Shown one piece after another: positions 19,912 through 53,745 of a stretch of 64,000 nucleotides of DNA. How positions within the stretch are numbered: the first letter of the stretch is position 1; each line of letters starts with the position of its first letter. Made by a program: the position numbers and the translations under genes. The notes beneath the pieces were generated by a model. The model ran no database searches and had not been told where the DNA came from. It saw only the letters and a program-made list of their open reading frames with translations. The DNA is from Lentisphaera araneosa HTCC2155 (GTDB lineage: Bacteria; Verrucomicrobiota; Lentisphaeria; Lentisphaerales; Lentisphaeraceae). The DNA is taken from positions 248,001 through 312,000 of the forward strand of contig NZ_ABCK01000006.1 in the NCBI RefSeq assembly GCF_000170755.1, written 5' to 3'.

Positions 19912-22098
19912 ATGAAGACGCTGATAAAAAGCAAAAGCTTCTCGATTGTAGAAGTCATTGTAGTTTGCGCAGTTGTGGCGATTCTGTCTTCACTGATCAT
20001 GAGTGCAAGTAGCTCAGTTCGTGAAGCTGGAAGAAAAACAACCTGTTTAAATAACCTCAAACAAATCCAAGCTATATACGAAGCTTATAGAAAAGATCAT
20101 CGTAAGGCTCCTGCCGGTGATATTTTATTATTAAATGATTTCACTTTCGCTAGTGAGTATATCTCTGAGAGCGACTTGGAAACGTTTATTTGTCCTGGAG
20201 ATGAATCCAATGAACTTCTAGCAAGAGGCATAGATGGTTTAGATGGTTATACTTCTTATTCTTATGTTCCTATTGATCATTTAAGTAATGGACTTGTTAC
20301 TAGTGGTAATGAATTAGCTAGTAGTGAAGAAGTTCAACTGGCGTCAATGAAATTAGTTGCATTTGATAAAGATGATGGAAATCACCATGGTAATAGGAAT
20401 ATTGTTTATTTTCACGGTTCTGGAAATAGTAAATCAGGTATTGCTCAAACATTAAAAAGAGGGACATTTTCAGACCTTGCTCTCCTAGATACTCCGGACA
20501 ACGCCTCAGAAGCTGATGACAACGCCTCAAGCGAGGAAGAAGAAGCTGATGACAATGCCTCTAACGAGCAAGAAGAAGCTGATGATAACGCCTCAAATGA
20601 GGAAGAAGAAGCTGATGATAATGCCTCAAACGAGGAAGAAGAAGCTGATGATGACGCCTCAAACGAGGAAGAAGAAGCTGATGATAATGCCTCAAACGAG
20701 GAAGAAGAAGCTGATGATAACGCCTCAAACGAGGAAGAAGAAGCTGATGATAACGCCTCAAACGAGGAAGAAGAAGCTGACGATAATGCATTAGAAGAAG
20801 CTCAAGAAGAACTAGAAGCTCGTGAAGATGAATTAGTTGAAGCCTCTGATGAAGCCGATGAAGCCTTAGAAGATGCTCAAGAAGCCGAAGAAGCTGCTGA
20901 AGCTGCTGAAGCTGCTGAAGAGGCTGCAAGAGAAGAAGCCGAAGAAGCTGCAAATGACGCTAAAGAAGTTGCTGAAGAAGCTGCTAGGAAGGAAGAGGCC
21001 CTTGAACAAGCTAAAGAAGCTTTAGAAAATGGACCGCAAGGTTACGATAGCCAGAACGTAACTCTGCCAGATGATAATAAAGGTAGTGTCGTTACAGTTA
21101 ATACAGATGTTACAGTTACCTTGGAGCTCATTGGCTCAGGTTTTTCTTCAAATTCTATCTATTCAGATATCACAGTTGGTAATGAAACCTATAAGTGGGA
21201 AGATGAAGGTGGGGATGCTCACACAAGACACGTCGTTGGTGTGGAAGGTTTGGCTATAGACTTAGATGTTGAGACCGGCTTAACTATTGCAGTTAACGGT
21301 AGAAGTTCATATTATGACTCATCCAACCTTCAAGGAAAAGATAACTTAATGGTTTACAGAGATGGCGACAAAGCGACTTCAGTTGGTGGCTATAATGGTC
21401 AAGATTCAGTTAAAACATTTTTAAGTGATTATATCGATAAAGATGGTTATGTAACAATTGGTGCAGATCAAGTCATTTTCCTGATGGAATTAGGTACGAC
21501 TAATAAAAGTAAATCTTATTACGATATGCAGGATTTAGTTGTCTTGGCAACTTTTGAGGTTGTTGCGACAGAGGAAGATGTAGCAGAGCTTGAGAAACAA
21601 GTTCAAGAAGCAAAAGAAGCTCTCATAACTGCAACTACTGATGCGAATGCCGCTGCAGAAGCTGCTGCTGAGGCAGCCGCAAAAGCTGAGACCGCAGTAA
21701 TCGCTGCTGAGGCCGCTGCTGAGGCTGCTGCAGAAGCTGCTGAAGATGTCGAAGCTGCTGAAGAGGCTGTGCTTGAGGCAGAAGAAACAGAAAAAATGTG
21801 CCGTAATGGGAACACTCAAAATCAAAATAACGGTTTTGGTAATGGTGACCAAGATGCTCCGGGTAACAGCTTAGAAAATAATAATGCTGAAAATGCCCAA
21901 GGTAATAATGGCAATACCAACCCTAACTCAACTTCGAGCGAAGCAGATAACTCAGCGGAAATAGCGGAGTTAGAGGAAAAAATAGAAGAGTGGACAACTA
22001 AGCATCAGAAATTTGTAAAAAATGGTAAGAAAAACAAAGCTAAAAATATTCTTAAAAAGATTGAAGCAGCACAAGCTGAGCTGGAGGCTTTGAACTGA
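19912..22098 (+). CDS. Prepilin-type protein with long acidic repeat and Ala/Glu-rich extension
   Basis: 728 residues. It begins as a type II/IV pseudopilin: basic leader, then F10-SIVEV with Glu at +5 and a hydrophobic helix, although Ser replaces the usual Gly at the cleavage site. A normal pseudopilin globular part with CLNNLKQI and a terminal DGN...FHGSG motif ends near residue 175. Beyond it come eight perfect-length 11-residue repeats (ADDNASNEEEE, residues 201-288), an Ala/Glu helix, a beta-rich domain (about 350-530), a second Ala-rich helix, an Asn/Gly linker (NGFGNGDQDAPGN) and a charged coiled coil. AAGGAG lies seven bases before the ATG, inside a small AAGGA-GAG-TCCTT hairpin. Probably exported and surface-associated; function unknown. 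Confidence 0.85.
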   Translation: MKTLIKSKSFSIVEVIVVCAVVAILSSLIMSASSSVREAGRKTTCLNNLKQIQAIYEAYRKDHRKAPAGDILLLNDFTFASEYISESDLETFICPGDESNELLARGIDGLDGYTSYSYVPIDHLSNGLVTSGNELASSEEVQLASMKLVAFDKDDGNHHGNRNIVYFHGSGNSKSGIAQTLKRGTFSDLALLDTPDNASEADDNASSEEEEADDNASNEQEEADDNASNEEEEADDNASNEEEEADDDASNEEEEADDNASNEEEEADDNASNEEEEADDNASNEEEEADDNALEEAQEELEAREDELVEASDEADEALEDAQEAEEAAEAAEAAEEAAREEAEEAANDAKEVAEEAARKEEALEQAKEALENGPQGYDSQNVTLPDDNKGSVVTVNTDVTVTLELIGSGFSSNSIYSDITVGNETYKWEDEGGDAHTRHVVGVEGLAIDLDVETGLTIAVNGRSSYYDSSNLQGKDNLMVYRDGDKATSVGGYNGQDSVKTFLSDYIDKDGYVTIGADQVIFLMELGTTNKSKSYYDMQDLVVLATFEVVATEEDVAELEKQVQEAKEALITATTDANAAAEAAAEAAAKAETAVIAAEAAAEAAAEAAEDVEAAEEAVLEAEETEKMCRNGNTQNQNNGFGNGDQDAPGNSLENNNAENAQGNNGNTNPNSTSSEADNSAEIAELEEKIEEWTTKHQKFVKNGKKNKAKNILKKIEAAQAELEALN
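20512..20775 (+). repeat. Eight tandem 33-bp repeats inside the acidic prepilin gene
   Basis: Units start at 20512 and recur every 33 bases (20545, 20578, and so on), encoding A-D-D-N-A-S-N-E-E-E-E. Copies differ by single bases, for example Gln in copy 2 and a third Asp in copy 5. A degenerate ninth copy follows. Since 33 is divisible by three, copy-number change keeps the frame. Confidence 0.95.
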
Positions 22099-22134: not shown

Positions 22135-22166
22135 AAGAGCCTTTTCATTAGAAAAGGCTCTTTTGT
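22135..22166 (+). terminator. Rho-independent terminator of the acidic prepilin gene
   Basis: Perfect 12-bp stem (AAGAGCCTTTTC with GAAAAGGCTCTT), 4-base loop ATTA, T-run; 36 bases past the stop. Confidence 0.9.
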
Positions 22167-22327: not shown

Positions 22328-22918
22328 ATGAAAAGAATAAAGAAAGCTTTTACTTTAATTGAGATGATGATGGTGCTCGGGATTATTGCCATTCTCTTTG
22401 GGATTGGCACAGCTGTATTTACAGTGGCAACGGGGAAATCGGAGATAGCTAGTGCAAAAAGTCAAATAGCCCAATTAACAGCGGCAGTAGAAATGTATTA
22501 TGACCGTTGGGGTCAGTATCCATTGGCTAATGGAGCCGATGTTAATGATGAGTTTAATTTTGGTGAGTGGCTTTCAAAAATAGCGGCGGATAATACTTTA
22601 GACAACAACTGGACGGGTAAGCGAGCTATGTTTATTAAATTTAATGAACAAGGATATGATGTGGATAACCCTGATTATGACGCTGATGGGGCTACTGCTA
22701 CTGTGGTGTCGGATCCATGGGGGACTCCTTACGGGTACTCATATAACACAGCAACTAATAGTTTTATAATTTATTCTGTTGGGACTTTTGATCAAATCGA
22801 TGGTGACCTAAAAGCTGATTGGGTTTCTTCTGAATGGCAGTTTAGTGATGATTCTAATGGTCCATACGGGGGTAAAGAGGCACAAGAAGTTGGTATAATT
22901 TCCAGTCATTTAAAATAA
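22328..22918 (+). CDS. GspG-like type II secretion pseudopilin
   Basis: 196 residues with the canonical prepilin start KKAFTLIEMMMVLGIIAIL, cut after Ala by prepilin peptidase and methylated on Phe. The C-terminal SDPWGTPYGYSY with a following SVGTFDQ segment is the calcium-site signature of GspG, the major pseudopilin of type II secretion. No other secretion-system genes are in this window, so it is either an orphan or works with a system elsewhere. A TTGGAG site precedes ATG 22328. It follows a terminator and so has its own promoter. Confidence 0.85.
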   Translation: MKRIKKAFTLIEMMMVLGIIAILFGIGTAVFTVATGKSEIASAKSQIAQLTAAVEMYYDRWGQYPLANGADVNDEFNFGEWLSKIAADNTLDNNWTGKRAMFIKFNEQGYDVDNPDYDADGATATVVSDPWGTPYGYSYNTATNSFIIYSVGTFDQIDGDLKADWVSSEWQFSDDSNGPYGGKEAQEVGIISSHLK

Positions 22919-51809: not shown

Positions 51810-52138
51810 ATAGCTAGGCTCCAAGCTAGCTGTTCAGGAATGCCCCTTTGGACCGCCAGGCTCCAGCTTGGCATTTGCGGATAGAAATGAATTAGGTCAG
51901 CATTGTATAAGCCGGTCAGGAATGCCCCTTTGGACCGCCAGGCTCCAGCCTGGCAGTTGCGGATAGAAATGAGTTAGGTCAGCATTGTATAAGCCGGTTA
52001 GGGGTCACCCTTTGGACCGCCAGGCTCCAGCCTGGCATTTGCGGATAGAAATGAGTTAGGTCAGCATTGTATAAGCCGATCAGGAGCCCGGCGGTCCCAT
52101 CATAAATCCGGTCAGGAGCCCGGCGGCCCCATGAACAC
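51810..52138 (+). repeat. Left REP-like array: three 82-bp units and two 32-bp units
   Basis: 82-bp units (type A) begin at 51834, 51916 and 51998; each holds palindrome GCCAGGCT-CC-AGCCTGGC preceded by TTTGGACC and followed by TTGCGGATAGAAATGA. A variant partial unit with GGATAGCTAGGCTCCA opens the array near 51819. Two 32-bp units (type B, TCAGGAGCCCGGCGGTCCCA) begin at 52080 and 52112. The B core GGAGCCCGGCGGTCC is the reverse complement of the A core GGACCGCCAGGCTCC with one mismatch. No gene lies between lysS and the transposase except this array. Confidence 0.9.
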
Positions 52139-52286
52139 CAGTTTGGACGCTGTGGACAAAAGTAGTTTCTTCCAATAAAATTCTTCCATTTTTATTGTTG
52201 ATCGTTTAGGGTATTTCCAATGGAGAAATGAGATGAATAATAATAGTGTATGAAGAAGCCGAGGCTATTTACCTCATTATGATGAA

Positions 52287-52823
52287 ATGGGGATTTATCA
52301 GTCACTTACTTTTCGATTGTTTGGTAGCATCCCTCAAAAAATCATTCAGCAGTTTCGTGAAGAACTTGAAAATGTCGATGCTAAATTACTTCATCAAGAA
52401 ATGAAAGAGAAAATTGAGGAGGCTTTAGCTCAGGGTATGGGATACTGTGCATTTAAGCACGATGAATTAGCTGGAGTCATGCAAGAAGCCTTGTTTCATT
52501 TTGATGGAGAACGATATGATTTAATTGCATGGTGCATCATGCCAAATCATGTCCATGTACTTATTAGGGTCAATGATCAATTGGCAAAGATAATTAATTC
52601 TTGGAAGTCTTTTGTAGGGAAATATGCCTTGAGTAATAGGCGTAAATTTGGTATAGAGGAGGATCAAAAAAGCTTTTGGTTGCGCGAGTATTGGGATCGT
52701 TATATACGAAATGAAAATCATTTATTAAAAACAATAAACTATATCCATCAGAATCCAGTAAAAGCTGGTTTGTGTTCCGATGTCATAGAGTGGAAGTGGT
52801 CGAGTGCCTATAATGGGAAGTGA
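52287..52823 (+). CDS. REP-associated tyrosine (Y1) transposase, TGA in frame near the 5' end
   Basis: 178 residues of an IS200-like HUH transposase. The histidine pair lies in WCIMPNHVHVLI and the catalytic Tyr in INYIHQNPVKAGL, with terminal WKWSSAY. The conserved N-terminal motif RGYLPHYDE lies upstream in the same frame (52060s series: codons from 52260), before ATG 52287, and a better start exists at ATG 52233 with GGAG seven bases upstream. That reading (M-N-N-N-S-V) meets TGA at 52251-52253 before RSRGYLPHYDE. Either the gene is inactivated by this stop or it starts internally without a ribosome-binding site. It is flanked on both sides by REP-like arrays, the typical setting of these transposases. 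Confidence 0.8.
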   Translation: MGIYQSLTFRLFGSIPQKIIQQFREELENVDAKLLHQEMKEKIEEALAQGMGYCAFKHDELAGVMQEALFHFDGERYDLIAWCIMPNHVHVLIRVNDQLAKIINSWKSFVGKYALSNRRKFGIEEDQKSFWLREYWDRYIRNENHLLKTINYIHQNPVKAGLCSDVIEWKWSSAYNGK

Positions 52824-52847
52824 ATAAAAGAGCTCTGCTTTCGTCGA

Positions 52848-53199
52848 CTAGGAATAAGCCTTTGGATAGCTAGGCTCCAGCCTGGCATTTGCGGATAGAA
52901 ATGAGTTAGGTCAGCATTGTATAAGCCGGTTAGGAATAAGCCTTTGGACCGCCAGGCTCCAGCCTGGCATTTGCGGATAGAAATGACATTAGGTCAACAT
53001 TGTATAAGCCGGTCAGGAGCCCGGCGGTCCCATCATAAATCCAGTCAGGAGCCCGGCGCGCCCATCATAAAGCCGGTCAGGAGCCCGGCGCGCCCATCAT
53101 AAAGCCGGTCAGGAGCCCGGCGCGCCCATCATAAATCCAATCAGGAGCCCGGCGGTCCCATCATAAATCCGATCAGGAGCCCGGTGGTCCCATGCTGAG
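52848..53199 (+). repeat. Right REP-like array: two 82/83-bp units and six 32-bp units
   Basis: Type A units begin at 52848 (its core is the variant GGATAGCTAGGCTCC) and 52930; type B units begin at 53013, 53045, 53077, 53109, 53141 and 53173, exactly 32 bases apart. Orientation is the same as in the left array, so the transposase lies between direct, not inverted, copies. This accounts for the whole 391-base stretch between the transposase and the next gene. A 61-codon ORF across it is repeat-derived. Confidence 0.9.
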
Positions 53200-53214: not shown

Positions 53215-53745
53215 TTAGAGTCCATCTACTCTCTGATCAAACCCACCTGTGCTGGATTCCACATGGCCGTCACCCGCTAAAATGTTGGCGCGACCACCGG
53301 TTTTGTGAGTATCTGCGGTAGCTTCGGAGCCTTGAATATAACTTTCGGTAGCGACTCGACTTTGAGGATCTTCGATATATTTAAACTTGGCTCCTGCAAT
53401 ACCCTCACAAAAGCTATAAACTTTAGCTTTTGGATCAGTTCCAGTATTTCGTTTTGCCATGCATGATAGAGCTCCATATTCTAATTCCCAAACATCGCCT
53501 GGGTCATTCTTAGGCGCCGAGCTATAACTTTGGAGGTACGAAGAGGAAGATGTGGGTATATTTGTCTCAGCACCATCATGGAAATACATGATCATTGCAG
53601 TCCCAATCATTTTTAGGTTACCAGTACAGCCCTTTTGTCGAGCTTTGTCACGAGCTGATCCAAGTGAGGGTAAAATAATGGGAGTAAGTAAGCCCATGAT
53701 GAAGATGATAACTAGTGCATCAATTAGTGTGAATTTTTTTCTCAT
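53215..53745 (-). CDS. Prepilin-like protein with atypical processing site
   Basis: 176 residues. N-terminal KKFTLIDALVIIFIMGLL is a prepilin helix, but Lys replaces Gly/Ala before the cleavage site and Asp replaces the Glu at +5. The middle keeps GCTGNLKMIGTAMIMY, and the C-terminus NILAGDGHVESS is the usual end of pseudopilins in this phylum. Probably exported and surface-exposed if still processed. It follows the GST gene by 9 bases on the same strand. Confidence 0.8.
   Translation of the reverse strand: MRKKFTLIDALVIIFIMGLLTPIILPSLGSARDKARQKGCTGNLKMIGTAMIMYFHDGAETNIPTSSSSYLQSYSSAPKNDPGDVWELEYGALSCMAKRNTGTDPKAKVYSFCEGIAGAKFKYIEDPQSRVATESYIQGSEATADTHKTGGRANILAGDGHVESSTGGFDQRVDGL

Follow-up and report, generated by a model that had tools for sequence, protein, structure and literature searches.

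The genome of Lentisphaera araneosa HTCC2155 encodes a small pseudopilin whose chain runs on for some 540 residues past the pilin domain, which raises the question of whether this extension is real and what it might do. The gene lies in a 64,000-nucleotide stretch of contig NZ_ABCK01000006.1 (hereafter the window, to whose positions all coordinates refer). It is complete (19912..22098, plus strand; 728 aa), has orthologues, and forms an uninterrupted frame of 728 codons from an ATG at 19912 to a stop at 22096-22098. We found its segments in the order pseudopilin, polyacidic repeat, helix 1, beta domain, helix 2, Asn/Gly linker, and C-terminal helix pair. The initial annotation, made from the letters alone, had described the composition and order of the extension correctly (acidic repeats, Ala/Glu helices, a beta domain, and an Asn/Gly linker); the C-terminal helix pair was absent from its description, and the small pseudopilin portion that it recognized ends at residue ~185 rather than at ~175. 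A model of the full-length chain was poor overall (pLDDT 55, pTM 0.32). Matches to Borrelia_P83, SMC, Mitofilin, and TrlF, all under their cut-offs, were rejected as low-complexity hits on the acidic and coiled-coil parts. A promoter and terminator scan around the gene gave no excess over shuffles; it contained a 12-bp stem at 22135-22162.

Homologue searches recovered the extension in L. marina (locus L094, contig NZ_JAQZZL010000002.1) and in another Lentisphaera species. The segment order is identical in all three, and both orthologues occupy the same position, beside dprA/topA and a GspG-like pseudopilin. In the window, the latter is a downstream frame of 196 aa at 22328..22918 (plus strand; PF08334, 2.9e-09; TIGR01710, 9e-14), syntenic in the three genomes. 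Because these orthologues with the same order stand in independently assembled genomes, a chimera specific to this assembly, the danger raised in the initial annotation, is excluded. Identity to the L. marina protein was 84% in the beta domain, 71-72% in the globular part of the pilin, and about 65% elsewhere, while the third species showed 78% in the beta domain and 53% in the pilin.

The beta module (residues 373-556; 21028..21579, plus strand) was also set apart by its rate of change. Because dS was saturated in the comparison with L. marina, we used dN only, without a ratio. The value for the beta module was 0.098, as compared to 0.224 for the globular part of the pilin and 0.22-0.27 for most other segments; the N-terminal helix aside, no segment had a lower value. 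The module is single-copy in its own genome, and it lacks a Pfam or NCBIfam model. AlphaFold2, run on an alignment of 52 sequences, predicted a beta-sandwich (pLDDT 90.5, pTM 0.85). When this model was compared with the PDB by Foldseek, the nine best matches were all lectins of the LecB type (PA-IIL/LecB/BclA), with modest E-values of 2.4e-3 to 1.2e-2, probabilities of 0.96-1.00, and TM-scores of up to 0.60 on the lectin; thrombocorticin appeared at ranks 13, 16, and 19. The top match in a structure search of a viral library was a DUF4114 protein (7.8e-4, probability 1.00).

Sequence profiles gave a fainter picture. With hhalign, the module matched DUF4114 at 15% probability (P 0.0018), its acidic loop lining up with the motif of that family. 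Against LecB-type lectins, whose profile was built from few sequences taken from Burkholderia and Embleya plasmid records, the probability was 2.8% and the alignment ran through another region, not the loop. DUF4114 and the LecB-type lectins matched each other at 28%, a relation already present in the literature (PMC9109919). The PA-IIL model (PF07472) matched none of the 52 module members up to E=10 and nothing in the L. araneosa genome, while DUF4114 (PF13448) had three matches in that genome, none of them in this gene. A sequence search of the module against PDB chains and a comparison of a Verrucomicrobia module sequence with PA-IIL revealed no link. Thus, because the sequence profiles are weak or fail, the relationship rests on the predicted fold and the position of the loop, from which the module is predicted to adopt a LecB/DUF4114-type fold.

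Nine columns are invariant among the 52 sequences. Four of these, E526, D538, Q540, and D541, belong to the acidic loop E526...D538-x-Q540-D541 (21487..21534, plus strand), which the model places between the last two strands. The Ca2+ ligands of LecB (E95, D99, D101, N103, and D104) lie in the loop before its last strand (PMC8752737), and the present loop would share with those of LecB and BclA the series E, D, [N/Q], and D; the register between the loops was set by their place in the fold, without a sequence match. DUF4114 proteins have a similar loop, ED...D-x-D-[FY]-[ND]-D. Together with the invariance of these residues, the modeled position suggests a site that probably binds Ca2+. The likeness to LecB has clear limits: its ligand D99 and its sugar contact D96 have no counterpart here, its N103 is replaced by Gln, its domain spans 114 aa as compared to about 185, and the sequence likeness is below any threshold. 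Moreover, because the chain continues into helix 2, the C-terminal Gly contact of LecB-type lectins is missing. The suggestion in the initial annotation that the protein perhaps binds Ca2+ is plausible, with better evidence in the beta domain than in the acidic repeats.

Beyond the genus, a profile built from nine members found the module in 19 of the 388 genomes of the phylum, and a scan of 84,980 species yielded 67 loci. The bacterial ones belong to Lentisphaeria, Akkermansiaceae, Phycisphaerales, Rhodothermales, cyanobacteria, a Campylobacterales MAG, and a deltaproteobacterial MAG, and the archaeal ones to Haloferax, Halomarina, and Methanosarcina. We sorted these proteins by N-terminal pattern and by eye, so the classes are approximate. 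The module sits on prepilin-type N-termini in Lentisphaeraceae and other Lentisphaeria; on PilX/GspK-like N-termini in Victivallales, one Phycisphaeraceae member, and the deltaproteobacterium; on N-terminal-helix proteins in Rhodothermales; and on a TadG-like protein in Campylobacterales. One cyanobacterial carrier is an HpsC-like pseudopilin (NF038304, 4.8e-9, below its cut-off), and in eight Haloferax the module is carried by archaeal pilin-like proteins with RGVSEI. The database record of a haloarchaeal plasmid relative calls this protein 'type IV pilin N-terminal domain-containing protein'; the query that matched it had two residues shifted to the family consensus (LSNGD to LRDGD) and served as a similarity probe only. 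In Akkermansiaceae and many Phycisphaeraceae, the module is found on Sec-type secreted proteins, in one case next to a fibro-slime domain. Thus, the module recurs on filament-like proteins across phyla. As far as the literature searched goes, it has no name and its repeated appearance in bacteria and archaea is undescribed, while modular pilin architecture as such is already known.

The beta module is flanked by two predicted helices. Helix 1 (residues 288-372; 20773..21027, plus strand) is built of Ala/Glu heptads and helix 2 (residues 554-632; 21571..21807, plus strand) of Ala-rich heptads; in the full-length model, their blocks reached pLDDT values of 91-95 and 91-94, respectively, over most of their length. 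A periodicity of 3.5 as strong as that of helix 1 occurred in 0 of 5000 shuffles, and for helix 2 the corresponding p-value was 0.0012. The two helices measure 80/77, 80/77, and 73/77 aa in the three Lentisphaera species, and they are missing together in family relatives that retain the pilin and the beta domain. In addition, a paralogue, G001_B, has a similar helix pair in which a short turn stands where the beta module would be. Because the lengths are similar, the helices are absent jointly, and the paralogue has a hairpin, we infer that helices 1 and 2 pair as an antiparallel hairpin stalk with the beta domain at its tip.

G001_B is a tandem paralogue (L039:3141-5084, minus strand) with acidic repeats, the helical hairpin, and a different C-terminal domain. 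That domain recurs in a 4355-codon frame of the same genome and gave a single weak match outside it; heads appear to have been swapped.

After helix 2, the chain passes through an Asn/Gly motif, NNGFGNGDQDAPGNSLENNNAENAQGNNGNTNPNS (residues 639-673; 21826..21930, plus strand), conserved in congeners and paralogues, and ends in a partly basic helix pair (residues 681-703 and 707-727; 21952..22092, plus strand; block pLDDT 89-95), with a net charge of +4 over residues 691-728. A related motif of ~35 residues, NNGHGNN[VE]DGVDSSNPG...D...VDDE, is nearly letter-identical across the phylum in pilin-like and beta-module proteins (loci L171, L172, L173, L178, L046, L047, L052, L064, L069, L070, L073, and L148). 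It directly follows the beta module in Akkermansiaceae and lies within the module in L148; no Pfam or NCBIfam model describes it.

Several precedents bear on what such an architecture could do. In Streptococcus sanguinis, PilB carries a metal-dependent binding module grafted onto a pilin, and modular pilins of this kind are widespread, with many unnamed modules (PMC8179133). As in PilB and other modular pilins, an N-terminal small pilin module is followed here by a separate, presumably extracellular module that is not specific to pili, since it also occurs on Sec-type secreted proteins; in both cases a metal-dependent head is proposed (PMC8179133). PilB differs in bearing a vWA head on a short loop, whereas the present protein has a predicted LecB/DUF4114-like head, an acidic spacer, a probable coiled-coil stalk, and a linker and helices that follow the head. 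In Myxococcus xanthus, exopolysaccharide has been proposed as the ligand of the DUF4114 domain of PilY1.1 at the tip of the pilus, and the D498A mutation abolishes colony-level motility, proposed to be exopolysaccharide-dependent (PMC9109919). The two proteins would share a LecB/DUF4114-type domain with an acidic loop, proposed to stand at the tip of a type IV filament. However, PilY1 is not a pilin, and its domain is a member of the Pfam family DUF4114 while the present module is not; the loop motif also differs (ED...D-x-D-[FY]-N-D in PilY1.1 and E...D-[FM]-Q-D here). An Acanthamoeba protein binds mannose resin through its DUF4114 domain (PMC11934332). Finally, Lentisphaera is known for transparent exopolymer, according to a passage in PMC9476954 that cites Cho et al. 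2004.

We therefore propose, with a probability of roughly 0.55, that the protein is a modular type IV filament subunit or surface anchor whose head, carried by a spacer and a probable coiled-coil stalk, binds glycan in a Ca2+-dependent manner. The N-terminal helix and the small pseudopilin domain would tether it to the inner membrane or a filament. From there, a polyacidic spacer, disordered and variable in length, would lead into the stalk, most likely a hairpin, ~12 nm long, of the two ~80-residue heptad helices, and the beta-sandwich would sit between the helices at the far end. There it would probably bind Ca2+ via E526, D538, Q540, and D541 and, via the Ca2+, a glycan, either the cell's own exopolymer or a seawater polysaccharide. 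The chain would then return through the Asn/Gly linker to the small C-terminal helix pair. This agrees with the initial idea of an unusual filament subunit or stalk insofar as the N-terminus, the helices, and the recurrence of the module are concerned.

The leader and hydrophobic helix (residues 1-34; 19912..20013, plus strand) resemble a prepilin and more than 130 similar N-termini occur in the same genome, yet the match to PF07963 (N_methyl) is weak and below the cut-off (E=0.02), and the helix placed by the full-length model at residues 12-63 is of low confidence. The globular part (residues 35-185; 20014..20466, plus strand) is DUF1559-like, with a PF07596 score of 21.5 bits against a cut-off of 23.3, with the L. 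marina orthologue scoring 23.4. Like the DUF1559 pseudopilins of the PVC group, the protein has the N-terminal helix, a TCLNNLKQIQ stretch, and an H...G...N...G end; unlike them, it has the 540-residue extension, which was present in none of 40 sampled in this genome.

The genome holds 132 other pseudopilin-type matches, one alone of which lies in an open frame of more than 330 codons. This 716-codon frame (G000:C10; L168:2801-4951, minus strand) joins a complete sulfatase in frame with a pseudopilin, either as a real fusion or through a lost stop codon, and was rejected as a relative of the extension. In another Lentisphaeria family, the beta module of two pseudopilins (L044:6390-8195 and L045:384-2252) is replaced by a beta-propeller-like region, after which come RTX-type Ca2+-binding GGxGxD repeats. 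Elsewhere in the window, tandem repeats of 82 and 32 bp flank a small transposase-like frame (52287-52823) at 51834-53184, adjoined by another pseudopilin at 53215-53745 (minus strand).

Of the features of a class III signal peptide, the protein keeps F10 (+1), E14 (+5), and the hydrophobic helix, with Ser instead of Gly at position -1. This position varies among relatives, none of those examined having Gly; nor did any of the 40 other pseudopilins sampled in the genome (e.g., loci L179-L218), in which Lys (22) and Arg (5) were found. Because the leader lacks Gly(-1), processing is not assured, and the protein could instead be a membrane-anchored surface or periplasmic protein with an uncleaved prepilin-like anchor, whose stalk either crosses the periplasm or holds the head outside the cell. 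The weak N_methyl match and the plain secreted proteins that bear the same module fit this alternative as well. On the other hand, the residues at +1 and +5 and the helix are retained, a GspG-like pseudopilin adjoins the gene in three species, and the genome has seven PF00437 matches (type IV ATPases) and one intact-looking prepilin peptidase frame (L265:1357-2511, minus strand; 384 aa) with CPxC and GGGD motifs. We regard an uncleaved anchor as unlikely, though still worth serious consideration. In the peptidase frame, a long insertion separates the two aspartate motifs, DIETRTIP and GGGD, and it is possible that the cleavage specificity of this genome's enzyme has changed.

The protein might also be part of exopolysaccharide export, as a pseudopilin whose module binds the polymer during secretion; this would suit the transparent exopolymer attributed to the genus in the passage cited above (PMC9476954) and the HpsC-like cyanobacterial carrier, in line with the name of the hormogonium polysaccharide secretion pseudopilins. 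However, no polysaccharide synthesis or export genes lie directly beside the gene, and many secreted proteins of unrelated kinds carry the module, which makes this role improbable.

The polyacidic region (residues 191-292; 20482..20787, plus strand) consists of 52% Asp/Glu over 102 residues, with no Lys or Arg and a net charge of -53. It is encoded by a tandem repeat at 20508-20786 (period 33 bp or 11 aa, 8.5 copies, 93% matches), and the full-length model, with pLDDT below 50 over residues 83-290, leaves it disordered. The unit is 11 aa here, NEDEENAS (8 aa) in L. marina, and NADD (4 aa) in the third species. Because the unit and length change while the acidic character persists in all three, the region behaves as a spacer. 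That these repeats are instead the Ca2+-binding or ion-sequestering element, with the beta module as a structural cap only, would accord with their charge and retained composition; it has little to commend it, since the repeats contain no defined Ca2+ motif and it is the beta module that is most strongly constrained and that holds the invariant acidic residues.

The display of a Ca2+- and glycan-binding head thus stays our preferred reading, and the beta module may have been reused widely as a sugar grip on surface filaments. More tentatively, and with the odds somewhat against it, the module could be the founding member of a superfamily, as yet uncurated, of domains that bind glycans in a Ca2+-dependent way. 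Such domains would have been fused many times over, and independently, to type IV filament subunits of bacteria and archaea (pseudopilins; PilX/GspK-, TadG-, and HpsC-like proteins; haloarchaeal pilin-like proteins), and many uncharacterized filaments of Lentisphaeria, Planctomycetes, cyanobacteria, and Haloferax would then serve to grip polysaccharides. PVC bacteria have very many pseudopilins without a known job, more than 130 in this genome, and for one of these there is now a predicted class of ligand and a site that can be tested. With the module as a probe, one can also search for a domain family that has no entry in Pfam or NCBIfam and recurs on bacterial and archaeal filament proteins. 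If glycan binding is confirmed, this would point to a way for such filaments to hold on to exopolymers, with relevance to marine aggregates and haloarchaeal biofilms, and the LecB/DUF4114 fold would gain a general filament role beyond Myxococcus PilY1.
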